DNA from: Kosmotogaceae bacterium
GTDB taxonomy: Bacteria > Thermotogota > Thermotogae > Petrotogales > Kosmotogaceae
Reading direction: 5' to 3'
DNA length: 57,381 nucleotides
Assembly (NCBI GenBank): GCA_016933635.1
Contig: JAFGAP010000184.1
Coordinates: 1 to 57,381 of the forward strand
How positions within the stretch are numbered: position 1 is the first letter of the stretch; every line of letters begins with the position of its first letter. The notes below the pieces were generated by a model. It was not told where the DNA came from, made no database searches, and was given only the letters and a program-made list of their open reading frames with translations. The position numbers and the translations under genes are program-made. Of the stretch, positions 19,134 through 33,164 are shown in pieces.

Positions 19134-19606
19134 GATTTCTAGTTGAAGATCCCTTAACCAAACTAGCAAGAAAGCTCAGACTGATGGGGTTTGACACGGA
19201 AATATGCTCTAGAAATGATATACGCAAATCAATTGAGAATCGCGATGTATTTTTGACTAAGAGTAAGAAAGCAATGGAGATCGCGAGTAAATTTGGTATT
19301 AGACCTTATCTGATCAAATCTGAAAACTGGCGCTCACAGCTTAAATCCGTAATTCAGAGATTCCAGATAGATTTGGACGATGTTCACTTTCTTTGCAGAT
19401 GCTCGAAATGCAACGGTCTACTTGAAGAGGCTTCTCCAGGAGATGCTGCAATGGTTCCAGAATATGTGGCACTTACGGCAGAAAAGCTTTACAAATGTAA
19501 CAGGTGTGGTCAGCTTTATTGGAATGGGAGTCATGTTGAACACATGAAATGGATGAACGGGATCGTAGGAAAGAGTGGTGATAATGCTGAAGAAAACAAA
19601 CTTTGA
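19130..19606 (+). CDS. Mut7-C RNase-domain protein with zinc ribbon
   Basis: 158 residues. The N-terminal PIN-like Mut7-C/DUF82 domain ([18 protein letters not shown], then DVFLTKSKK) has conserved acidic residues expected of a metal-dependent RNase. The C-terminal half carries CRCSKC and CNRCG, a four-cysteine zinc ribbon, typical of the archaeal/bacterial Mut7-C family. The cellular substrate is not known; a role in rRNA or tRNA turnover is an inference from the fold and from the rsmD neighbour. It overlaps the kinase gene downstream by 23 bases. Confidence 0.85.
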
Positions 19607-22295
19607 GAAATCATCCGATGAAGTAATCAAAAGGATTTTGAAGAGAATTTCACTTGAAACCTCTTCGGAAGCATCACTGTTCATACTGGAGAAATATCGA
19701 AACGTCTTCAAAGAAGTCAACCCGGGTGAAGCTTTCAACCGCACTGGTAGAGAAATAAGGTTAAGCCTGAATCCCTCTCTGAAGGAGCTTTCAGTGGATT
19801 TTGTTGGAGAGATGAGCATTGTTGTTTCCTCTCATGACGGAGAATTCAGGCAAAAAGTATTACTGGTCAATCTTTCTCACGATGGCGAATCTCATGGGCT
19901 ACTGATGATGTCTGCTGGAGCAGAACTGAAGAAATCACTCAAGAGCTGGATAAAGGAACTTGAGCTTGCTTTGCATTATTCGTTGAGAAGATCAGCCGAA
20001 GAGGAAGGTTACAGGCGGTTGAAACTGGTTTCAAAGCTTACTTCGGTATTGGAAACTGAAACCCAAGTCGAAGAATTGATATATAAGTCGCTGGAAATAG
20101 CAAGAGAAATGTTGAGAGTGAGATGGATCTTCTATCTCGAAGGACAGGAAAACAGTCTTCACCTGAAGGCGGCTGTGGGAGACGGTAATAACCCTCTTAA
20201 GGGAATCGAAATAGAGGTGTCTGACGATCAGCTGAGTGAACTAGCAAGTGAGAAGCTATTCGTTTCTGCCAGAAAATCATATCTCTCATCTGCAATCTTC
20301 AAAGAAGATGTTTCTGTGGGTTCCTTCATGGCTATTCCTCTAGCCGTTGAAGGAATACTAAACGGACTTATCGTCGCTGCTGACAGGGAGGATGTTGAAG
20401 GAGAATTCAGGGCATACAAACATCTGGACAAAGAAGACCTAAAGATTCTTGATGATATTAGCAGAAGAATGGCCGTTGCAATTAGCAGAATAAGGCTTAC
20501 AAATAGGTTAGAGCTGGAAGTAAGGAAGCTAAGACAACTCGGGAAGAAGCACGAAGATCTCATAAATGATCAAAAAGATCAGCTTTTCAAGCTTGGAGTT
20601 CTTCATAAAATTACCGAGGCCATGAAAAGAAGTATGGACAGAGAGAGAATAGTCAGAATTCTTCTAATAGGCGCGACTGATTCCTCAGGACTGAGATTCG
20701 ATCGAGCTACATACTTCCGTGTAGATAGCGGTCGTTCCCTTCTCTTTTTGGAAACGCGAGTAAATTCTACTAAGGTCAAGAGTTTCCAGGACAAGTCCGC
20801 TTACAGTGACTTAACAAGGTATCTTCAAGATGTTTCGCTAGAGGCGGGACAAAGTACTACTAATAAAGAGTCTTCGGTATCAATTCCATATCCAGGTAAC
20901 ATTATCCTGGAAAGGGTCATCCTCAGGAAGAAGATGGTTCACGTTACCCCAGAGATGCTCAGGCTTAGGGGAGATGAGCTAAGCTTGATGAACAGAATTA
21001 TCGGCTCTGACGAGTATCTCATTGCTCCCGTGTCAGGAGAAGAAGAAGTCCAAGGTGTGCTTGTGGTTGACAACGCTCATTCCCGGAAGAAAATCAGCAG
21101 CGGGGACATAGAGATTCTCGGATTGTTGGCCGACAGCACAGGAGTAGCTCTTGAGCTTACGGAGAACTATAAGAGAATTGTACAAATGGCCGAGAGCCTC
21201 GAAAAAGAGAGAAATCTCTCCAATTATTACCGAAGATTCGTTTCAAGTATACTTCAGTCTCTAGAATCCGCAATCATAGTTTGTTCTGTAGACGGCGAAA
21301 TAACGGAAATCAACAGAACGGCTGGATTTCTTCTGAGCATTGAAAGAGAAGAATTGATTGGCAAGAAGATTCAGTCAATAAAACCGCAACTTGGAAGCAT
21401 CATCGACCTTCTGTCGGATGCGATGAGAATCGGTGAGACTATTACTCTTACGGATCAATACTTTGAAGCCTTTGGAGAAAGATACTTCGACGTTCGAATA
21501 ACACCGCTGAGAGAAGAGAAAAGGAAAGGTCTTACTGGCGTGATTCTCTCCTTGGATGACATAACTAGAAGGAGAAATCTTGAGCAGGAATTGAAGGGCA
21601 GGGAGAAACTTGCGGCTCTGGGAGAAATGTCTGCAAGAGTCGCCCATGAGATTAGAAATCCAATAACTATAATCGGCGGCTTCGTCAAAAGGATTCTGGC
21701 TTCCTCAGACAGGAAGAAAACCGAAGAATATGCGAAGATTCTCATGGATGAGCTTCAAAGACTGGACAGAATAGTTGGTGAAGTCCTTGAAGCTTCCAGA
21801 AGAAAGACCAAACCGTCCGAAGAAGCGTTTGACCTGGTTTCTATGACACGTGAAATATTGGCTGGATTCGAAGAAAAAGCCACGTCAGAAAATGTTAAAC
21901 TTGTTCTATACACGAAAGAACAAAGAATTGAATATTACGGAAATAGAGATAAAATCAAACAGGTAATAATCAATTTAGTCCAGAATGCTATTGAGGCCTC
22001 TGAATCTGAAGATGAGGTCCAAGTAACTCTTGAGAGGCATAACGAAGAAGTTCAATTTTCAGCCTGGAACGGTGGGAAAACTATACCAGAAGAGACTTTG
22101 AAGCGCATTTTTGAACCATTCTTCACAACAAAGACTCTCGGTACCGGTCTGGGACTTTCTATTTGCAAAAAAATTGTAGAAGAGCACGGAGGAAGCATTC
22201 ATGCTTCAAGCGGAAGTGAAGGAACTGTCTTTACTTTCAGGTTGCCGACTAAGGAATTTGGGAGGTTTGATCTTGAGAAAGGTACTGATAGTTGA
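19584..22295 (+). CDS. Soluble GAF/PAS sensor histidine kinase
   Basis: 903 residues with no membrane segment, so a cytoplasmic sensor. Order: an unassigned N-terminal region (1-145), a GAF-like domain (about 150-310), a coiled coil, a second GAF-like domain (about 335-520), another coiled coil, a PAS domain (about 545-660; [18 protein letters not shown]), HisKA with phospho-acceptor His688 in [10 protein letters not shown], and the ATPase domain with [10 protein letters not shown] (N box), FEPFFTTK (F box) and [18 protein letters not shown] (G2). ATG 19584 is preferred over GTG 19575. It overlaps the receiver gene by 23 bases, so the two form a cognate pair. The signal is unknown. Confidence 0.9.
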
Positions 22296-22638
22296 AGATG
22301 AGAAGAATCTGAGGCTACTAATCGAAGAAGAACTAAGAGAATCTGGCTTTGAAGTCCAAAGTACCGGCACAGCTGAGGAAGCGCTTGAGATTCTCAGCAC
22401 CGACAACTCTTTTGACCTTATGACCATTGACATTGAAATGAAGGGGATGAATGGGCTCGAGCTTGCCGGTGTTGTGCGAAAGCGTTTTCCAGAAATGAAA
22501 ATCGTGCTGCTTACAGCTTATACTCATTACAAGCACGATCTTTCTTCTTGGGCCGCCGACGCGTATGTTGTCAAGTCACCCGATTTTTCAGAGCTTAAGA
22601 CACTTATTGAAGGCCTTCTTGGTGAAGATGATGACTAG
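22273..22638 (+). CDS. Stand-alone response-regulator receiver
   Basis: A CheY-like receiver of 121 residues with no output domain. VLIVEDEK holds the acidic pocket, Asp53 in MTIDIEMKG is the phospho-acceptor, and VLLTAYT and YVVKSPD supply the conserved Thr and Lys. Start TTG 22273 has GGAGG seven bases before it. It overlaps the histidine kinase by 23 bases and ends 19 bases before the SLBB export gene. Without a DNA-binding domain it must act by protein contact; control of polysaccharide export is an inference from position only. Confidence 0.92.
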
Positions 22639-22657: not shown

Positions 22658-25600
22658 ATGCAAAAGAAGATTATATCTCTTTCAATAGTGCTGTTGATTA
22701 CATTGTCACTTCTAGGATATTCAGTAAGGCCGGGTGACCTTCTATCGATTTCCGTATATGGATCCAGCGATCTTTCTAGCGAAACCCTTGTGGGACCAGA
22801 TGGAACTGTTTCAGTTCCTCCGCTTGGAAGTATTATGCTTCTGGGAAAGACACTAGAGGAGATTCAATCCTTTCTGTCTTCACAATTTCTTAGTAAGGGC
22901 ATTCTTACATCAGAACCGCAAGTAACTGTATCTGTGAAGTCGTTCGCTCCATTCATGTTCTACGTTCTGGGAGAGGTTAACAAGCCCGGAGCAATTGAGT
23001 GGCGCAACGATACAATTGGAATTTCTCAGCTGCTAGCACTTGCAGGCGGCCTAAAAGACGGGGCAGATCTTTCCTCATCTTTCACAGTAGATAGTGAAGG
23101 AACAAGGAATTACATAGATCTATCTTCTATTCTCTCTGGTGGAGCCGCTCTAAAACAGAAAATTCCTGAAGGCTCAACATTATTCGTTCCAACCGGTCCT
23201 CGTGCATGGATAATGACGATGGGCGAGTTCATTTCTCCTTCACTTGTCAAATACAGCCCCGGAATTACTTTGACCCAGGTGATAGCCAAGTCCGGAGGAC
23301 TAAAGGAAACCGCCGATGATGAGGAAATCATGATTCTTAACGATGGTACAGGGAATTCTTCGATCGTCAGTCTTAACAGCGTCTTATCTGGAATCAAAAG
23401 TGATCCTGAGCTGTCTGCTGGGAGCATTGTCGTAGCAAACGACGCCTCATCAAAATCAATCAAGCTTCTAGGAGAGTTTGGCAATCCTTCATCCATAGCA
23501 TACCGTGAAAAGCTGACTCTGCTTCAAGCTATTGGAGAGGCCGGAGGACTGAATCAGGCCGCTTCGGACCTGCTTTACATATTGAGGAAAGACCTAGATG
23601 AACCGGAATCCATTGAAATCAGCAAACTCCTTAGCGGTCAAATAAAAGATATAAACCTCTACCCGGGTGAAACGGTATTCGTTCCACGCCAGCCAGAAAG
23701 ATATGTATATATTGCCTCCGCATCGTTTGGAGGAAAAGTTGAATTCAGTATAGACGAAGAAATCACGCTTAGCAATGCCTTAGTGAAGGTAGATCTCTTT
23801 GATCCAGTAAGCAAAGATCCAGTAGTTGTCGTAACCACCTCCGGTGAACGTCATGAGTTTCATCAAGGAGAAGATGCCATTCTCGATTCAGGATCAATGA
23901 TAGTACTTCCGAGCGGCGAAAAGAGCATCTTCGTCATCGGTGAAGTTAGAAACCCCGGCATCCTTTCCTTCTCGAATTTCGAAGAAATCACTCTTGGAAG
24001 AGCAATTGCAAAATCAGGTGGAGTAACTGGGTTTGCAGGTTCAGTAGAGCTTCTGGAAGACGGGGAAGCAAGGAAATTTTCAATCGAAGATGCGGCTAAG
24101 AGCACTTTGATTCTTTCAGCTCAATCTATCGTAAATGTAGTAGAAAAAGAGCAGCACTTTGTATATGTCATTTCTTCGGCGGAAGGTGGAAGAATCGATT
24201 TTGATGAAAGAGAACCATTCACTTTGAGAAACCTTCTGGCAAAAATGAATTTACTAAACTTCAATTCAAAGAAGGAAATATCTATTATTGATCCCGATGG
24301 AATGAGCAGATTTCTATCAGCTTCTACCTTGTCAAAGGAAGACTTTCAGCTTGAGACCGGTTCAATCGTGATAATTCCCGATATAAGTACGTGGATATAT
24401 GTATTTGGGGAAGTGGGAAGACCCGGAAAGATCAAGCTCGATGAAGACGATCTCCTTCTGACTCGAGCTATCAGTGCAAGTGGAGGATTTACTCAAAACG
24501 CAGACATTTCGTCAGTTCAGGTGCTTTCAGGATCGGAAATCAGTGAAATCGATCTTGATGAAGTTCTGAAGGGATTATCCAGAGATCTCGAAATTGCATA
24601 TGACGATCTCATATATGTCCCAAGAACCGATAGTCGATTCGTCTATGTTGTTTCTGATAAGAATGGTGGAAGAGTTGATTTCTCTTCTGGTGAAAACATT
24701 ACACTCAGAAATGCCCTTGCCAAAGTAAATCTTGTGGAGATCGCCTCGCAGAAGGAAATCTCGGTGATATCGCCGTCTGGTAAAGAGATAAGAGTTTCAG
24801 TTAGCTCTCTCGAAAGATCTGACATTGAATTGGAAACCGGAAGTGTAATCTTTTATCCTCAGGCGGACAACGTGGCAAATGTCATTGGACAGGTAAGGAA
24901 TCCCGGTACTGTGAATCTCAAACCCGGTATGCCCTTCGATCTGAGCACCGTAATTGCAGCAGCTGGTGGCATAACCGATCTTGGCGACGGATTCAATATT
25001 ACCGTAATAGATTCCAAGTCTGCTTCTACAGTCGTTTACAGTGTTGAAGATCTAACAAGAGATCCGATCCCAGTAGTCCCAGATGGAGCCACTGTATTTA
25101 TTCCCGAACTGAAGACGAGATTCGTTTATGTTTTGGGGGGTGTAAGGGAGCCGGGAATAAAGGAAATGAGCAAAGATGAGCCAAGACCAACTCTGACAAA
25201 ACTAATAGCGATTTCTGGTGGACTGAGCGACCCACTTTCGAAGGAAGTTGAGATAATTGAGGAAAATCAGAGAAGAAAGCTTGACCTGCAGGCAGTAATG
25301 ATGGGCAGTATTGCAGATCCACAGATATCGGATCGTTCGATAATATTTATACCTGAAACTTCCGATCGATTCGTATATATGATCTCCAAGGAGAAGGGTG
25401 GCAGAGTCGACTTTGGAAGCAATGAGGAAATCACCTTAAGGACTGCACTGGCAAAACAGAATCAACTTGATTTTGATTCGGATAGCAGAATTACCATTAT
25501 CCTTCCAGACGGGACAAAGAGGGAGAGACAGATATCAGATCTTAGGGAGAGCGATATGGATTTGTCCCCTGGATCAATAGTTATTTATCCAGATGTTCTT

Positions 25601-27382
25601 CGTCAGGTGTTTGTAGTAGGTGCGGTTAACAAACCAGGACTCGTGGAATTCGAACCTGGAGAAAAAGTCTCCCTAACAGCTGTCCTCGCAAGGTCAGGTG
25701 GAATGACCCCACTTGCTCTTAGCAGCAAGATACAGATAACGGATCCTTTTGGAAGGACATCCACTGTAAGTGCAGACTCAATACTTCTTGGCAAGGCTCT
25801 TGATTTGAATCTTGAAGACGGTTCTTTTGTTTACGTACCCATATATGAACCAATCAGGGTAAATGTAATAGGAGAAGTCAATTCTCCAGGAACGATTGAA
25901 TTCTCTAAGACCGAATCGCCATCTCTTCTACTCGCTATTTCTAGAGCTGGTGGATTGACTGAAAAAGCTTCACAAAACGTTAAGATCACGGGCGAAGAGA
26001 AAGAAATACAGTGGCTAGACCTTGTCGACGGAAAAGACGTGATGTTAGTCGCGGGCCAAACCGTCTACGTTCCGGGTGACGACCGATACATCTACGTTAG
26101 TGGTGAAGTAAACACTCCTGGAAAGTTCGAATTCGCTGTTCAAGAAGAGATAACGATTCTGAGGGCTCTCGCTAGAGCTGGTGGTGAAAAGGCTACAGCC
26201 TCGGACCTGGTCAAAGTATTACTGCCCTCAGGGGAGATTTTTCCTATGAGTCTATCGAGTATCAAGAGTGAAGGCAAAGATTCACTTATTGAACCCGGAA
26301 GCACACTCATCGTACCAAGACAGGTACTTAGAATAACCGTTCTTGGGGCAGTTAAGAATCCCGGTCTATTCACTTTCAATCCAGATGAGGATCACTCACT
26401 TTCCGATGCTATTGCTAGGGCCGGAGGCCTCATAAACGATGATCTTGTTGATGTGATAATTGTTCATGACGAAAAACAATACAAAGAATACAGCCCAGAA
26501 GTTTTGCAGAAAAGAGGAAATCAACTCTCTGATAACGCTTATATTTATGTGTCCAGTAAATCGCCCGTCTCTGTAACTGTCTTGGGTGACGTTGCTAGAT
26601 CTGGAGAATATGAAATCACCGTTACGAATCCTTCGATAGCTACGGCAATAGCAATTGCCGGCGGACTTGAAAAGGCCGTAACTACGCTAAACCTTATCGG
26701 AAGAGATGGTAAGGTGCAGTTGTTTGATGCATTGAGGACCGAGGAGCTTGCAAGAAGCTATCTGGAAGATGGAGATACTCTTGTCGCGTTAAGAAACTAC
26801 GATTCTTTTGTCGCGGTGGTTGGTGATGTGGAATCTCCAGGAGTATTTCCAGTCTCGGACTATGGTGAACTGACTTTGGCTGAACTCATAAGTCTTGCTG
26901 GCGGAATTACGAATTTCGAAACCAGCGGAAGAATCTTCATATCGTCGGCCGGCAAGACGGAAGAGATCATTACCTCACCTGATGATTTCATCTCTCTCAC
27001 TAGAAAAGTAGTTCCAGCTGGATCCACTGTATATGTGCCTTACTCGGAACCGGCCAGAGTTTATGTTTTCGGTGAGGTTCAAAAACCTGGTGTCGTAGGA
27101 TTCTATGACGGAATGACAGCCATTGAAGCACTTCTGGAAGCCGGTGGACCGACAAGCTATGCTGTCCTCGGAAATGCATTGCTCTTCCATGATCTTGAAA
27201 AAGAGCCAATGGTAATCGACCTGGATCAGCAGAAAGGAAAACCCGCAAAGGGAAATATCCCGCTGGTACCGGGAAATATAATTTTCGTTCCACAATCCCC
27301 AATAGTGAATATTAAGGATATTATGTCGATTGTTGCTTCATCGCTAAGCATAGTGAATTCAGCAGTCGGCATATTTAAGTGA
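22658..27382 (+). CDS. Giant polysaccharide export protein with 18 SLBB repeats
   Basis: 1574 residues, about four times the length of Wza-type exporters. An N-terminal signal sequence (about 1-20, ending LSLLGYS) has no lipobox cysteine. A Poly_export domain (about 21-98; VRPGDLLSISVYG, GPDGTVSVPPLG) is followed by 18 SLBB-like repeats of about 80 residues up to 1547. A short hydrophobic/amphipathic C-terminus follows (DIMSIVASSLSIV). Most repeats carry GEVxxPG; four (the 4th, 6th, 8th and 11th) replace it with a GGRV(D/E)F-type turn. ATG 22658 has AAGGAGG seven bases upstream. The role, forming or lining the periplasmic and outer-membrane route for exopolysaccharide, follows from the family and from the adjacent Wzz kinase. 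Confidence 0.88.
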   Translation: MQKKIISLSIVLLITLSLLGYSVRPGDLLSISVYGSSDLSSETLVGPDGTVSVPPLGSIMLLGKTLEEIQSFLSSQFLSKGILTSEPQVTVSVKSFAPFMFYVLGEVNKPGAIEWRNDTIGISQLLALAGGLKDGADLSSSFTVDSEGTRNYIDLSSILSGGAALKQKIPEGSTLFVPTGPRAWIMTMGEFISPSLVKYSPGITLTQVIAKSGGLKETADDEEIMILNDGTGNSSIVSLNSVLSGIKSDPELSAGSIVVANDASSKSIKLLGEFGNPSSIAYREKLTLLQAIGEAGGLNQAASDLLYILRKDLDEPESIEISKLLSGQIKDINLYPGETVFVPRQPERYVYIASASFGGKVEFSIDEEITLSNALVKVDLFDPVSKDPVVVVTTSGERHEFHQGEDAILDSGSMIVLPSGEKSIFVIGEVRNPGILSFSNFEEITLGRAIAKSGGVTGFAGSVELLEDGEARKFSIEDAAKSTLILSAQSIVNVVEKEQHFVYVISSAEGGRIDFDEREPFTLRNLLAKMNLLNFNSKKEISIIDPDGMSRFLSASTLSKEDFQLETGSIVIIPDISTWIYVFGEVGRPGKIKLDEDDLLLTRAISASGGFTQNADISSVQVLSGSEISEIDLDEVLKGLSRDLEIAYDDLIYVPRTDSRFVYVVSDKNGGRVDFSSGENITLRNALAKVNLVEIASQKEISVISPSGKEIRVSVSSLERSDIELETGSVIFYPQADNVANVIGQVRNPGTVNLKPGMPFDLSTVIAAAGGITDLGDGFNITVIDSKSASTVVYSVEDLTRDPIPVVPDGATVFIPELKTRFVYVLGGVREPGIKEMSKDEPRPTLTKLIAISGGLSDPLSKEVEIIEENQRRKLDLQAVMMGSIADPQISDRSIIFIPETSDRFVYMISKEKGGRVDFGSNEEITLRTALAKQNQLDFDSDSRITIILPDGTKRERQISDLRESDMDLSPGSIVIYPDVLRQVFVVGAVNKPGLVEFEPGEKVSLTAVLARSGGMTPLALSSKIQITDPFGRTSTVSADSILLGKALDLNLEDGSFVYVPIYEPIRVNVIGEVNSPGTIEFSKTESPSLLLAISRAGGLTEKASQNVKITGEEKEIQWLDLVDGKDVMLVAGQTVYVPGDDRYIYVSGEVNTPGKFEFAVQEEITILRALARAGGEKATASDLVKVLLPSGEIFPMSLSSIKSEGKDSLIEPGSTLIVPRQVLRITVLGAVKNPGLFTFNPDEDHSLSDAIARAGGLINDDLVDVIIVHDEKQYKEYSPEVLQKRGNQLSDNAYIYVSSKSPVSVTVLGDVARSGEYEITVTNPSIATAIAIAGGLEKAVTTLNLIGRDGKVQLFDALRTEELARSYLEDGDTLVALRNYDSFVAVVGDVESPGVFPVSDYGELTLAELISLAGGITNFETSGRIFISSAGKTEEIITSPDDFISLTRKVVPAGSTVYVPYSEPARVYVFGEVQKPGVVGFYDGMTAIEALLEAGGPTSYAVLGNALLFHDLEKEPMVIDLDQQKGKPAKGNIPLVPGNIIFVPQSPIVNIKDIMSIVASSLSIVNSAVGIFK
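22955..27298 (+). repeat. 18 tandem SLBB-coding units
   Basis: Protein-level repeats of 75-84 codons. Each starts near a strand such as VFVIGEVRNPG, has a mid motif (T/S)L..A(I/L)A..GG and ends in GS.(I/V).(V/I)P. DNA copies have diverged so that no long identical blocks remain, which argues for old duplication and against recent slippage. Two classes of unit partly alternate between units 4 and 12. Confidence 0.85.
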
Positions 27383-27394
27383 GGTTAAAGGACC

Positions 27395-28057
27395 TTGAAT
27401 ATTGACTCTCACTCCCATTTGCTTCCCGCAGTGGATGATGGTGTCGAAGAAATAGAGGAATCATTAGCGATCCTGGAAGAAATGAAACTTAAGGGGCTGC
27501 AAAGGTTGTATCTGACGCCCCACTTCTTCTCTCCCAGAAGTCCTACAGATCCTGCGGAAATTATGAAGCGATGGCATGAATTCAGATTAGAACTGAACAA
27601 TCATTCGGTCGAAGTCTTGCTCGGTTCGGAAATCTTTCTTAGGCCCGAGGTGCTGGAATCTGATTTGATCGCTATGGGTGAGTCGAATTGTCTGCTAATA
27701 GAACTCTCGACCCAACGGAAACCACATTACCTTCTTGAAGTCATAGAAAAACTTCAAAAGAAGGGGTTTAGAATCATACTCGCTCATTTGGAGAGATATC
27801 ATTATCTTTTCAAAAGGGGAGGATTAATCTTTGGGAAGACAGAACCGACAGATGACATACACAAGCTAAGAGACATGGGAGTTCTATTTCAGGTTAATTG
27901 GAACAGCCTTGACAAGGATCCAAATGCAAGGGTTCTTGTTGATCGGAGAATTGCGGATATTACTGGAAGCGATAAGCACAAGCGAGGCGATAACAGACTG
28001 ATTATCGATTTCCATGATGATCGATACAGGCTTTTCCTGAACGATTCTTTTCTCTAG
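27395..28057 (+). CDS. CpsB/YwqE-type tyrosine phosphatase (PHP fold)
   Basis: Manganese-dependent phosphatase that removes phosphate from BY-kinases. The 220-residue protein begins IDSHSHLLPAVDDG, the PHP HxH motif at residues 6 and 8, followed by LYLTPHFF and LGSEIF with further metal ligands. The C-terminal ITGSDKHKRGDNR replaces the usual ASDAHN loop. It is a little shorter than CpsB (about 250). Start TTG 27395, 12 bases after the SLBB gene, with GAGGT and AAAGGA upstream. The BY-kinase gene follows 14 bases later, the expected partner. Confidence 0.87.
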   Translation: MNIDSHSHLLPAVDDGVEEIEESLAILEEMKLKGLQRLYLTPHFFSPRSPTDPAEIMKRWHEFRLELNNHSVEVLLGSEIFLRPEVLESDLIAMGESNCLLIELSTQRKPHYLLEVIEKLQKKGFRIILAHLERYHYLFKRGGLIFGKTEPTDDIHKLRDMGVLFQVNWNSLDKDPNARVLVDRRIADITGSDKHKRGDNRLIIDFHDDRYRLFLNDSFL

Positions 28058-28071
28058 ATGGAGGTGCTTTA

Positions 28072-30282
28072 GTGAGCGAGTTTGAGGGTAGTGATTACAG
28101 AGAACTGACTCTTGAAGATATTCTTAGAATGTTTAAGAAACGAATGATCCTTTTCGTTTCGATAGTACTCGCAGTGGTTGTTGTGACAGGGATCTACCTC
28201 ATTTTCGCTACGCCTATTTACGAAGCCAGCGTTACAATAAAGGTCGACCCCACATCACAATCTTCAGTAAGTGATCTCTTCAGTAGTTCCCTAACTGGCA
28301 GTTCGGGATCAAATATCTCCACTGAAGTGGAACTGATTAAGAGCAGAACAAATATTGAAGAGATTATTGAAGTGCTTGATTTGGTGGACAGAATCTATTC
28401 AGAAGAGACAAAGAACCGACTTCTTTCGGAAGGTTATTCGCAGAAAGATCTTGTAACATCGCTAACACGCACGATTTCTTCAATGATAACCGTCTCCCCG
28501 GTTAAGGATACAAGAATTGTAAGAGTCTCAGTTCAGAACAAGGACCCAATTCTTGCAAGAGATATCGCCAATACGCTGGCCGATGTTTATAATACAAAGC
28601 TCGCGGAGTTATCCAAGAGAGATTTGACAAGAAAACGAGAATTCATCGAGGCTCAGATTCCTCTTCTAGAGAGTGATCTAAATGAGGCTACGGATAGGAT
28701 AAAGGATTTCAAAGAAGAGACTGGAATCTACGTTCTCGACAAGCATGCCGATCTTCTTTTTCAGATGCTAAGTAGTTATGACAAACAGTACAACGAACTG
28801 ATGATATCCGCTGAAGAGAAGAAAGCGGAAATCGAGACCTATCAGAGTATGCTCGATGATTTCGACAGCAACGACTCTAAGAGCATAAAGGCTTTGTGGG
28901 TGCAAACCTCTGAGAGCTTCTCTGTTAACCCGGTTCTGACGAGTCTTAGGCAGAGTCTCGCAACTTTGCAGGTGGAGCTTGCCTCTCTAGAGGAACAGTA
29001 TCCAAAAACTGATCCAAGAGTCAGGTCAAAGATAACCGAAATTTCGAAAACTGAGAGTTTGATCGAGGAACAGATACAGAATGAGTTCATTACATCCGGT
29101 CAGGGGATGACTCTAAATCCAGCTTATCAACAGATTATGACAGGAGTCATCAGTTCGGAAGCTGGGTTTCAAATACTTCAAGCATCAATTCAGGCGGTAG
29201 GTCTCTTAAGAGATCAATATCAATCTGAACTCAGAAGCCTACCTGCAAAGGAACAGCAGCTACTCGATCTTGAAAGACAGATTGCTGTGAAGGAAAGCCT
29301 CTATACACTACTTCTAGAAAGGCTCGAAGAAGCGAAGATCAGTGAAGCTGCCGTAGTTGGAAACGCCGCAATAGTTGATCCCGCAACTGTACCCCAGTCG
29401 GCGGTAAAGCCGAACAAAAAGCTTTCTCTTGCAATTGGAGGTGTACTGGGAATCTTTCTCGGAATGCTCATGGTCTTCCTTGCTGAGTACCTTGACAAGA
29501 CTTTGAAGACCGAAGAAGAGATAGAACGGTTCAGCAGACAGCCCATCATTGGTAGAATTCCGAATATTGAGGGAACAAGAGAGGAAATGTACGTAGAGAA
29601 GAATCCTACTGCTCCTTCCTCGGAATCAATTAAGTTGGCCGCAAGCAATCTTTCCTTTACAATGGGTGAGGGAAAGTCTGTTGCCGTTACTTCCGTTCTG
29701 CCTACCGAGGGAAAGAGTTTTGTGATAGCAAATCTGGCCTACTCAATGGCAAACAGCGGTCAGAAAGTCATTCTTGTAGACCTCGATTTGCGTCGTCCGA
29801 GGGTAGAGAAGATCCTCAAGGCAGGAAAGATAACTAGGGGTGCAGTCGATGTGATTATGGGAAACACAACAATTAATGAAGTTATACAACACTACGCCGA
29901 CAATATGGACTTCATAGCTGTAGGAACGATTCCTCCAAATCCGACAATAGTGCTTTCATCGAAAAACATCGATATCCTCCTTTCAGAACTCAAGCAGAGA
30001 TACGACAGAGTTCTTATTGATATGCCACCGGCAGTGGTTACCTCAGATGTATCTCTCATCGGTAACAAGCTTGACGGTATAGTATTGGTCGTAAGGCCTG
30101 GAAGGGCGATTAAGGATGGCTTGAGAATAGTTGTTGAGAATCTCAAGACAGTGGGGATCAAGATCCTTGGAGTAATAGTGAACGGTGTCGATGAGAAGAA
30201 TTCAAGCTATTACTATCACTACTACTATTATTACAATGAAGAGGGAAAGAGACAGAAGAGAAGAAAACGTAAAAAGAAGTAA
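28072..30282 (+). CDS. Fused Wzz chain-length regulator and BY-kinase
   Basis: Inner-membrane polysaccharide co-polymerase and autophosphorylating tyrosine kinase in one chain, 736 residues. The Wzz domain starts at about 14 with TM1 near 26-48, then a long periplasmic coiled-coil region, and TM2 near 445-468. The cytoplasmic kinase has Walker A PTEGKS with Lys548, Walker A' VILVDLDLRRP and Walker B VLIDMPP. The tail is a tyrosine cluster (YYYHYYYYY) followed by a strongly basic end. Start GTG with GGAGGTG upstream. It partners the adjacent phosphatase and SLBB exporter; phosphorylation cycling of the tail is expected to control polymer length. Confidence 0.93.
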   Translation: MSEFEGSDYRELTLEDILRMFKKRMILFVSIVLAVVVVTGIYLIFATPIYEASVTIKVDPTSQSSVSDLFSSSLTGSSGSNISTEVELIKSRTNIEEIIEVLDLVDRIYSEETKNRLLSEGYSQKDLVTSLTRTISSMITVSPVKDTRIVRVSVQNKDPILARDIANTLADVYNTKLAELSKRDLTRKREFIEAQIPLLESDLNEATDRIKDFKEETGIYVLDKHADLLFQMLSSYDKQYNELMISAEEKKAEIETYQSMLDDFDSNDSKSIKALWVQTSESFSVNPVLTSLRQSLATLQVELASLEEQYPKTDPRVRSKITEISKTESLIEEQIQNEFITSGQGMTLNPAYQQIMTGVISSEAGFQILQASIQAVGLLRDQYQSELRSLPAKEQQLLDLERQIAVKESLYTLLLERLEEAKISEAAVVGNAAIVDPATVPQSAVKPNKKLSLAIGGVLGIFLGMLMVFLAEYLDKTLKTEEEIERFSRQPIIGRIPNIEGTREEMYVEKNPTAPSSESIKLAASNLSFTMGEGKSVAVTSVLPTEGKSFVIANLAYSMANSGQKVILVDLDLRRPRVEKILKAGKITRGAVDVIMGNTTINEVIQHYADNMDFIAVGTIPPNPTIVLSSKNIDILLSELKQRYDRVLIDMPPAVVTSDVSLIGNKLDGIVLVVRPGRAIKDGLRIVVENLKTVGIKILGVIVNGVDEKNSSYYYHYYYYYNEEGKRQKRRKRKKK

Positions 30283-30334: not shown

Positions 30335-30389
30335 TCACAGCTGTTCGCGTTTCTAGTCCTAAACTCTTTGCTTTGATGAGGTGGTTTGG

Positions 30390-33164
30390 ATGTCCGTAAA
30401 GAAACACATGATAGACTTCGAAACAATTGTTTATCTGTTTTTGACACTGTTCATCCCTTTGTTTGTCACAAAGGGATTTACACATGAGCCCTCAACAGGA
30501 AAACATCTCTTCTACGTTATTGGATTCACAATCATCTTTCTTTTTCTGCTGATGAGAAAGAAAGAGATTTCAATGGAATTTGGATACGTTCATCTGTCCT
30601 TTTTCGGAATAGGCATAGCGGCTCTTTTGTCCTTGATAGTGGTTTATATGGACAATCCACAGTACTTCAGATATTCTTTAGAAATCGCTCTCTATATAGT
30701 TTTTCTTTCTTTCACCGCAGTCTATATTTCGAACAAATGGAACACCGTTGAAAAACTTGAAATTGTGATGGTCTTTTTTGTAATCGGAGCGGCAGTTGTT
30801 GCTTTCGACGCTCTACTGAACTTCTATCTAGGTTTGGATATCTTTCTTGGTAAGGTTGGCGAGCCCTTTGCAAGAGCTTCTGCGAGATCAACGATTGGGA
30901 ACCCGAATTTCGTGTCGGATTATATGGGAATGACCATTCCAATGATTTTCTACTTCCTTATTTCGAGAAAACCATTAGGCTTTCTTTTCAAGAGACAGGT
31001 TGGACAGCTTATTTTCAAGATTTCCTTGCTCATTTTCCTGATACCCATGGTTTCTTCCGTATTCGTGTCGCAAACGAGAACGGTGATAACTGCAATATTC
31101 GTTGGAAACCTCCTTTTTCTAGTTCTGTATTTCTTTCTGAAAAAAGGAAAGAAGAAGGAAGCGCTAGACGACTCTGAAAGCAGAAAACTAGGCAGAGTAT
31201 CTCTCGTTTTCTTCATTTTGGCTCTGATAATCATCGCAGTACTCTCTTATCTATATCTCACACCATCACCACTGTCAGGTGATGGAAAAATCAACATAAC
31301 CGCGAGGTTGGAATATGCTATCACTTCTTCGGGTTCCTGGAATGAGAGATTCTCTGCCTGGTACAATTCGATCTTTCAGTGGTTGGAAAGCGAAAACAAG
31401 TTGAGAATTCCATTTGGCTCGGGCATTGGCACGTTTCAACTCTATCATTTGCTGTACAGTCCAGAAGTTCTTCAGCACAGCCCTCACTTTATGCCCGTTT
31501 GGAATAATTTCAAAAGGACACACAATGACTATGTACAGGGCCTGGGGGAAATGGGTCTAATTGGATTTCTGTTTATTGTTCTTTTGGTTGGATTACTCGT
31601 TTTCAGATATTTGAAGAATCTATTCAAGATTGAAAATCAAAGGGATTTATTGCTTTACGGGTCGCTGGGGGCAGGAATATTCTCTCTGGCAGTTCACAGT
31701 TTCTTTGAGTTCCCCTTACACATGCAACCAAATCTCATGCTGGCAGTCTTTTTGGGATCAGTTGCCGTTGGAAAATACTTCAATCCAGATCTGAAAAGCA
31801 AGAAAATCAAAAGACTCTCGTTTGCGGTTGTCATTATGGTTCTTTCAGGAGTACCGATATTTCTGAAAACCTCAGCTTTTATAGGAGAAGGCTTTTTTAG
31901 GATTGGTCAGACCAATCAGCAGTACTATCTCGCTTACTACAACCAGGCTCAAAGCCTCAATCTCAAAGCTCTTGAACAAGCAAAGAATGAAATAAATAGC
32001 TTTGCAGGCAATTATTCGTATCTTAAAGACGTTACCAGTTACATGAGTGCCAAAGGAAGTGAGATTCGCTCGAAATATCCTGGAGCGAGCCAGATAGACC
32101 TTCTTGAGTTGGCTGAGAAAGATCGGCAAAGTGAAGTGCGCAAATTGCTCGACGAAATAGATAATCGAATAAATCAATATAACTACTACTTGGCCAGATC
32201 AGGGGAGTACTACGAAAAGGCCATTGACAATTTCAAGTTCTCAAACAGAGTTTATCCGGTCTTTGGAAAGCCGTTATGGTACATCGCTGGACTGGGCACA
32301 AAGACACAGAGACTCGAAACCGCCAAAGATAACCCGGAACTCATGAAGTCTATCCTCACGGGCAAAGATGAGTACTCATCCGATATAATCCCGGAGTTTC
32401 AGGGGAATCCTGAAATAATCCCGGTTCAGAGGACGTCGATTAGAACTCTTCCCTTCCGCGACTTCTTTGAGAAAAACACTTTTGTCTTTGACAATCCCGA
32501 ATACGTTTCGGGATTGCAGCTGTATTTCATTACTCAGATTCAAATGATTCTAGACGCGGCCGATTATTACGAATCGTCAGTAATGCTATTCAGCGAACGA
32601 CAAACACCTAGAATTCTTGGGAGATTGTATACGAGCATAAACAGCGAATTAAAGAAGTACTATAGTTTCATAAATTCTAGAGAGAGCATACTGACCTCCG
32701 CTTTTGGAGAAAGCGGGGAATTCAGACAGTTACTCATTGATCTGGTATACGAAAGTGCTAATAGAGCAATATACTGGTTCGACTTGGGAATTTCGCTTCT
32801 TCCTGGCACATGGAACAGATACCCAGATTGGGAAGATATCTATGTAGAATACATGAACTCAATTCCCTCTATTCTCGATTCCATTGAAGAGAGAAAGCTA
32901 AAGATTCTTGAAGTTGCCGAAAAGCATGTTTGGGCTTGCGAGAATATGGGCCCAGAAGCTCCCGTAGAAACGCTTAAGTTTGCAATCCAGTGGGGCAAAT
33001 CCAACCTGTCCAATGGCGATTTGATAGACTTCGAACAATCTCTGAAAGAGATCTATCGGAAGGTTGTTTCTCTAAACACTGATTTGCTGGAGAAGTCACA
33101 AAATATTCCTCAGGATACGGCCGAAAGAATAGAGAGTCTTATCTCGCTCTACGAAGGGCTTTGA
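30390..33164 (+). CDS. O-antigen ligase/polymerase (Wzy/WaaL-like) with long soluble tail
   Basis: 924 residues. The first 480 contain about 11-12 hydrophobic helices and a large loop with KRTHNDYVQGLGEMGLIGF near residue 375, the signature of the O-antigen ligase (Wzy_C) domain. This fits a polymerase or ligase for the exopolysaccharide, acting in the inner membrane. The remaining 440 residues are soluble, tyrosine-rich and helical, with no domain I can name; a TPR-like fold is possible. ATG 30390 is chosen over GTG 30381 because GAGGT lies seven bases upstream. It ends the polysaccharide locus. No glycosyltransferase is in the window. Confidence 0.85.
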   Translation: MSVKKHMIDFETIVYLFLTLFIPLFVTKGFTHEPSTGKHLFYVIGFTIIFLFLLMRKKEISMEFGYVHLSFFGIGIAALLSLIVVYMDNPQYFRYSLEIALYIVFLSFTAVYISNKWNTVEKLEIVMVFFVIGAAVVAFDALLNFYLGLDIFLGKVGEPFARASARSTIGNPNFVSDYMGMTIPMIFYFLISRKPLGFLFKRQVGQLIFKISLLIFLIPMVSSVFVSQTRTVITAIFVGNLLFLVLYFFLKKGKKKEALDDSESRKLGRVSLVFFILALIIIAVLSYLYLTPSPLSGDGKINITARLEYAITSSGSWNERFSAWYNSIFQWLESENKLRIPFGSGIGTFQLYHLLYSPEVLQHSPHFMPVWNNFKRTHNDYVQGLGEMGLIGFLFIVLLVGLLVFRYLKNLFKIENQRDLLLYGSLGAGIFSLAVHSFFEFPLHMQPNLMLAVFLGSVAVGKYFNPDLKSKKIKRLSFAVVIMVLSGVPIFLKTSAFIGEGFFRIGQTNQQYYLAYYNQAQSLNLKALEQAKNEINSFAGNYSYLKDVTSYMSAKGSEIRSKYPGASQIDLLELAEKDRQSEVRKLLDEIDNRINQYNYYLARSGEYYEKAIDNFKFSNRVYPVFGKPLWYIAGLGTKTQRLETAKDNPELMKSILTGKDEYSSDIIPEFQGNPEIIPVQRTSIRTLPFRDFFEKNTFVFDNPEYVSGLQLYFITQIQMILDAADYYESSVMLFSERQTPRILGRLYTSINSELKKYYSFINSRESILTSAFGESGEFRQLLIDLVYESANRAIYWFDLGISLLPGTWNRYPDWEDIYVEYMNSIPSILDSIEERKLKILEVAEKHVWACENMGPEAPVETLKFAIQWGKSNLSNGDLIDFEQSLKEIYRKVVSLNTDLLEKSQNIPQDTAERIESLISLYEGL

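Follow-up and report, generated by a model that had tools for sequence, protein, structure and literature searches.

The window analysed here, a 57,381-nucleotide stretch of DNA from a Kosmotogaceae bacterium, spans contig C167 from end to end. The genome to which it belongs is incomplete, with 1.98 Mb spread over 260 contigs and a completeness of approximately 80%. On its forward strand, an open frame that starts with an ATG at position 22658, downstream of an AGGAGG-like site, and ends with the stop codon at 27382 encodes a protein of 1574 residues, composed of a Poly_export domain, 18 SLBB units and a predicted C-terminal helix according to the frame, Pfam searches and a repeat profile (gene hereafter called opx). 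The Pfam search revealed a single Poly_export (PES) domain at residues 21-94 (22718-22939, E = 6.8e-18), 14 stretches matching SLBB and 14 matching SLBB_2, and one internal match to Caps_syn_GfcC_C (residues 682-739, E = 2e-10). The N-terminus (22658-22717) resembles a signal peptide, as read from the sequence and not by a signal-peptide program, and the protein is thus most probably secreted. It contains no cysteine residue, in its N-terminus or elsewhere, and therefore has no lipobox.

A profile built from 8 of the protein's own units detected 18 SLBB units, 4 of them weakly (independent E = 0.014, 0.0015, 2.2e-5 and 4.2e-6). An iterated profile, trained over 77 related loci plus the window protein, returned exactly 18 units, each at E <= 1.2e-8, values that are optimistic because the training set includes the protein's own units; when the protein was shuffled 100 times, the same profile detected no unit. 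All on the forward strand, the units lie at 22961-23191 (unit 1), 23207-23434 (2), 23462-23686 (3), 23702-23911 (4), 23927-24139 (5), 24158-24379 (6), 24392-24622 (7), 24638-24859 (8), 24878-25105 (9), 25121-25354 (10), 25370-25591 (11), 25607-25840 (12), 25859-26074 (13), 26087-26317 (14), 26333-26551 (15), 26573-26785 (16), 26807-27040 (17) and 27059-27292 (18). The first-pass annotation had read 18 units, one Poly_export domain and no lipobox, all of which the Pfam search, the repeat profile and the absence of cysteines bear out; it would have been contradicted by a domain search yielding fewer than about 10 units, and the search yielded 14 stretches with Pfam and 18 units with the profile.

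The four weak units, 4, 6, 8 and 11, together constitute a variant SLBB sub-type. Units 6, 8 and 11 share 45-50% identity, and unit 4 is 29-38% identical to them. The variant units lack the usual GEV..PG and AGG motifs and alternate with ordinary units, and one of them, unit 8, matches the GfcC C-terminal model, the Caps_syn_GfcC_C hit overlapping this unit. Beyond unit 18, AlphaFold2 and an analysis of the protein tails predict a 22-residue amphipathic helix (residues 1552-1573; 27311-27376, forward strand), a candidate outer-membrane segment. The amphipathic signal exceeded that of the tail's own shuffles in 72 of 73 tails, with a mean z of 1.9.

Domain searches assigned the neighbouring genes, all on the forward strand. 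A histidine kinase gene (19575-22295) and a gene for a stand-alone response-regulator receiver (22201-22638) lie upstream of opx. Genes for a CpsB/CapC-type (PHP) phosphatase (27395-28057), a Wzc-type co-polymerase with a tyrosine autokinase domain (28072-30282) and a 927-residue Wzy_C (O-antigen ligase/polymerase) protein (30381-33164) follow directly downstream. By its sequence and context, the 22658-27382 product is an OPX (Wza-type) protein of a capsule-type operon. The receiver protein has no output domain, and its frame, located between the kinase gene and opx, overlaps that of the kinase when the latter is taken from its first start. In the Wzy_C protein, approximately 500 residues past the Wzy domain have no Pfam match. 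Elsewhere in the window, a RecG protein has PDB 1gm5, the T. maritima RecG, as its best match.

Three related genomes (G019, G020 and G025) share the arrangement kinase, regulator, opx, cpsB, wzc, wzy, metG, gyrA, so that there too the kinase and receiver genes sit beside opx; G019 and G020 have an extra gene between some members. A neighbourhood scan of 8 relatives matched the operon genes in these 3 genomes. Within 20 kb in the five more distant ones, only opx was matched, plus a Wzc-type gene in two.

Might the length of the frame be an assembly artefact, or the true number of SLBB units be far smaller? The contig does come from an incomplete assembly of 260 contigs, and Pfam by itself counts 14 stretches. 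Six complete same-genus orthologues nevertheless harbour 18 units each, two of them on 2.97 Mb contigs, and their alignment with the window protein past residue 21, at 56-90% identity, is free of deletions and contains between 0 and 2 inserted residues. The final 25 residues are identical in the window protein and these six orthologues. Recent slipped tandem copies were also rejected, Tandem Repeats Finder showing no unit-scale array; no two units of the protein exceed 50% identity, and they are hence not collapsed or slipped copies. With 18-unit orthologues devoid of deletions, the long frame is therefore not an assembly artefact, the outcome that the first-pass annotation had named as fatal to its reading, and we regard an artefact or a much lower unit number as extremely improbable.

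The phylum was surveyed with a set of 103 Thermotogota genomes, 83 of which, including that of the window, encode Poly_export. Seven of the 83 were left out because of a short frame or contig, and 77 loci were taken from 75 genomes; removal of 4 loci running off a contig end, 1 short locus (G071) and 2 second loci left 70 complete orthologues. These harbour 5-20 units with a median of 11, which supplies the survey of SLBB copy number that the first-pass annotation had proposed. Their length is described by 166 + 77 x units (r = 0.99): OPX grows only by whole units of 77 residues. In 8 of the 70 orthologues, a gap indicates that a unit escaped detection and the count is a minimum; OPX length was therefore used for the main test described below. 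The window's family has 13-20 units per protein, with internal changes relative to the window's 18 of +2 in G020 and G021, -2 in G033 and -5 in G019. The terminal units are best kept, the first and the last being 67% and 75% identical to those of an orthologue that is 56% identical overall. Of note, most genomes of family f7 (G008-G010, G012, G015-G017) have no Poly_export match, 3 of the 10 having one, and this family may in large part lack the exporter or have lost it. In a Thermotoga-type genome, Poly_export is split over two frames (G091:C1:17780-17993), and opx looks broken or mis-sequenced.

Long OPX proteins are thus usual in Thermotogota. For comparison, three samples were built around one Acidobacteriota, one Bacteroidota and one Pseudomonadota genome. 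Poly_export was matched in 89 genomes out of 119, 54 out of 61 and 52 out of 60, respectively, and the longest frames among the matches listed were 1034, 1003 and 1457 residues. The idea that Thermotogota might be the sole phylum with long OPX was rejected in view of the Pseudomonadota frames. Of the longest matches listed for other phyla, 16 OPX proteins were taken, one of them from a Gemmatimonadetes genome; these have only 5-8 units, with long non-SLBB stretches.

AlphaFold2 models were obtained for monomer fragments, namely residues 19-577 (units 1-6) and 1066-1574 (units 13-18). Mean pLDDT values of 86.7 and 82.6, respectively, and repeated beta-grasp-like strand and helix patterns bear out the units themselves in the monomer check suggested earlier, while pTM values of 0.39 and 0.44 give their relative placement no such backing. 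Foldseek returned Wza chains as best matches for both models (E = 6.9e-19 for the N-terminal and 4.6e-11 for the C-terminal model). A Wza fragment of 171 residues superposes fairly (TM 0.62 by target length, 4.4 A); superposition is poor past Poly_export and the first SLBB, and whole Wza superposes at approximately 9 A on the N-terminal and 21 A on the C-terminal model. Foldseek also aligned both models to linear ubiquitin chains. Sequence and models together establish the SLBB fold, and the models leave the arrangement and stacking of the units unsettled.

As a yardstick for the distance between membranes we used OmpA (Omp-alpha), the coiled-coil spacer that holds the toga of T. maritima approximately 50 nm off the cell according to PMC3387000. 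Proteins with SLH domains were found in 99 of the 103 genomes, and one OmpA-like protein was taken in each of 60, its length being measured from the start of SLH and its coiled coil being judged by low proline content and composition rather than with a coil predictor. The set omits 11 of the 71 genomes with a complete OPX, i.e., G011 (no SLH match), G013 and 9 near relatives. The copy chosen is not always that with the best SLH E-value, another having been taken in approximately 10 genomes, e.g. G029, G052, G100, G007 and those of the Fervidobacterium type, in which the best match is a frame of approximately 1000 residues. Genomes of f2, among them G034, G042 and G048, have opx and an SLH/OmpA-like gene on one contig, some 10-14 kb apart.

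Across the 60 genomes, the lengths of OPX and OmpA are strongly correlated (Pearson 0.923, Spearman 0.922), as are the means of 28 genera (0.912 and 0.946, respectively) and of 8 families (0.904). Phylogenetic contrasts, computed on a tree of OPX ends (269 sites) that is not an independent marker, gave 0.741 (n = 59); this value stays between 0.72 and 0.84 after dropping the 1 to 8 largest contrasts, and of the 49 contrasts that differ from zero, 38 have the same sign for both lengths. In 2000 simulations under Brownian motion, the raw correlation was never reached. OPX length thus follows OmpA, a proxy for membrane-to-membrane distance. No report of this co-variation was found in open-licence PubMed Central texts, supplements excluded. 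TamB (PF04357), meant as a third periplasm-crossing yardstick, has no match in the 103 phylum genomes, and 6 of 14 control genomes match.

How strong the correlation is varies with the choice of OmpA copy. With the strict best-E copy, r is 0.88 and the contrasts fall to 0.58, with equal sign in just 34 of 59; a second SLH paralogue gives 0.72 and 0.44, and the mean of two copies 0.84 and 0.67. This sensitivity, together with the derivation of the contrast tree from OPX, favours the view that the match reflects shared descent or a lineage-wide growth of proteins, the number of SLBB units being neutral or serving sugar binding. Consistent with such a view, OPX is longest in the window's family, whose OmpA proteins are among the longest and whose BamA proteins are longer as well. 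Nevertheless, r remains 0.875 without that family (n = 50) and 0.90 as a partial correlation at constant genome size, and comparisons made inside genera, pooled over 13 genera with 45 genomes, give an r of 0.67 (permutation p = 0.009). As a control, the frame length of BamA correlates with OPX length at 0.77 in the raw data because the window's family stands apart; its contrasts give 0.15 (n = 48), and -0.04 outside that family (n = 38). Descent alone fits the length data less well than the alternatives below, and we consider it unlikely.

The length data suit any axial spacer, and a tether fits them as well as a conduit does. The SLBB chain might accordingly be a flexible or rigid spacer from the inner-membrane Wzc to the outer membrane rather than a tube, with rings formed by the terminal units only and the polysaccharide passing beside the chain or through its ends. 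Models with good domains and no firm relative placement, and the alignments to linear ubiquitin chains, would agree with this arrangement. Any repeat could serve as a simple tether, however, and every unit keeps the SLBB fold; in Wza, the SLBB domain forms rings. A C8 Wza-Wzc channel is described in PMC12881504. A mere tether appears rather doubtful to us, although less so than shared descent.

The simplest and most likely reading is that OPX forms a conduit lying axially in the periplasm, its length tuned to the spacing of the envelope. The domains, the operon, the identical number of units across the genus and the co-variation with OmpA are observed; from these we propose that the Poly_export end faces the Wzc-type co-polymerase of its own operon, that the 18 SLBB units run roughly axially across the wide periplasm and that the amphipathic helix at the C-terminus inserts into the outer membrane. 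A number of OPX copies would stack their SLBB rings into a tube, through which the polysaccharide made by Wzy might leave the cell. The number of units would have been adjusted in evolution to the OmpA spacer distance, the tube just reaching across. That the chain forms an axial conduit of stacked rings, with a unit number evolutionarily fitted to the distance set by OmpA, is in our judgement probable. For the broader proposal that OPX is a modular trans-periplasmic tube throughout Thermotogota, with approximately one ring per 3.0-3.6 nm and a ring number evolutionarily set by periplasm width in step with the coiled-coil spacer OmpA, the chances seem about even. The conduit or spacer idea of the first-pass annotation gains independent support from the co-variation over 60 genomes, between and within genera, whereas its ring or conduit geometry draws no support from models with pTM values this low.

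The dimensions are compatible with such a tube. The rise of a helix is 0.1485 nm per residue, and by three regressions one SLBB unit equates to approximately 20-25 residues of OmpA coil, i.e., 3.0-3.6 nm, which roughly matches the extent of a single beta-grasp domain oriented axially. For the window, the estimated tube measures approximately 72 nm (18 units x 3.0 nm plus an assumed 18 nm) and the coil approximately 68 nm, an agreement that is rough and does not amount to proof. The corresponding values are 51 and 44 nm in the genome that we take to be that of T. maritima. The assumed 18 nm stands for the periplasmic part of Wzc and Poly_export, and was estimated from dimensions in PMC12881504, which gives a span of roughly 250 A and a length of 140 A for Wza.

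These proposals bear on a debate as to whether Wza-type systems form an unbroken periplasmic tube or depend on the envelope being narrowed locally, the latter being favoured in PMC12881504. A phylum with a wide periplasm, in which OPX changes unit by unit alongside the spacer, offers a natural test. If the conduit reading is true, OPX itself spans the gap, rather than the envelope being pinched locally, and the SLBB count of one gene predicts periplasm width. A survey of other species found no correlation of OPX length with periplasm thickness (PMC9603273), which counts against the conduit reading; if that reading is true, the null result would need a qualifier, a phylum with variable spacing not having been examined there as such.

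Long multi-SLBB OPX proteins are already known as a kind, and the novelty here is their length co-variation with OmpA. The window protein has the N-terminal Poly_export domain (PF02563) of OPX proteins, the one or more SLBB domains that follow it, and the co-polymerase and Wzy pathway genes alongside. Proteins with up to 8 SLBB domains are described in PMC1796856, and up to 14 in PMC9603273 (1-14 in Class 1, 1-6 in Class 2 and 1-7 in Class 3). One to three SLBB domains, given as usual by the first-pass annotation, thus hold for typical Wza but not overall, and the protein is less of an oddity than was claimed, multi-SLBB OPX proteins being in print and usual in this phylum. The domain order of those in PMC9603273 is that of the window protein, whose 14 Pfam stretches equal the top of the Class 1 range; compared with that catalogue, the repeat profile gives 18 units here and 20 in two relatives. 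The string Thermotog* is absent from the text of that paper.

By both sequence and fold, the closest PDB matches are Wza, the Class 1 OPX through which E. coli exports capsule and colanic acid (PDB 2J58, 9R60-9R69). Wza likewise has Poly_export and SLBB, followed by a C-terminal helix such as is predicted here, with genes for a Wzc-type kinase, Wzy and a phosphatase adjoining. Wza has two SLBB domains, in contrast with 18 here, and the window protein has no match to Wza_C (PF18412), which scored over the cut-off in 0 of 103 phylum genomes, although a profile of its C-terminal part aligns beyond the last SLBB of the Wza chain 26gs_O. It also lacks the lipobox cysteine that is common in Class 1, without defining it; 2 of 77 related frames show a lipobox-like pattern, both ambiguous. 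The phosphatase is of the CpsB/CapC type, unlike that of the Wza system, and the oligomer is a proposal only. KpsD/GfcC-type (Class 2) proteins similarly have an amphipathic C-terminal helix, but their GfcC module (PF06251) is C-terminal, whereas its sole match in the window protein is internal. OmpA1 (Omp-alpha), the toga spacer of Thermotoga, is likewise secreted, crosses the periplasm and carries a C-terminal hydrophobic segment, and its length scales with that of OPX; composed of SLH and a coiled coil, it is unrelated to OPX and serves as a yardstick only. The studies of Lpp length in E. coli, as presented in PMC8824477, share the idea that trans-envelope machines depend on a distance set by a tether; there the tether was engineered, whereas Thermotogota display a natural co-variation across a phylum.
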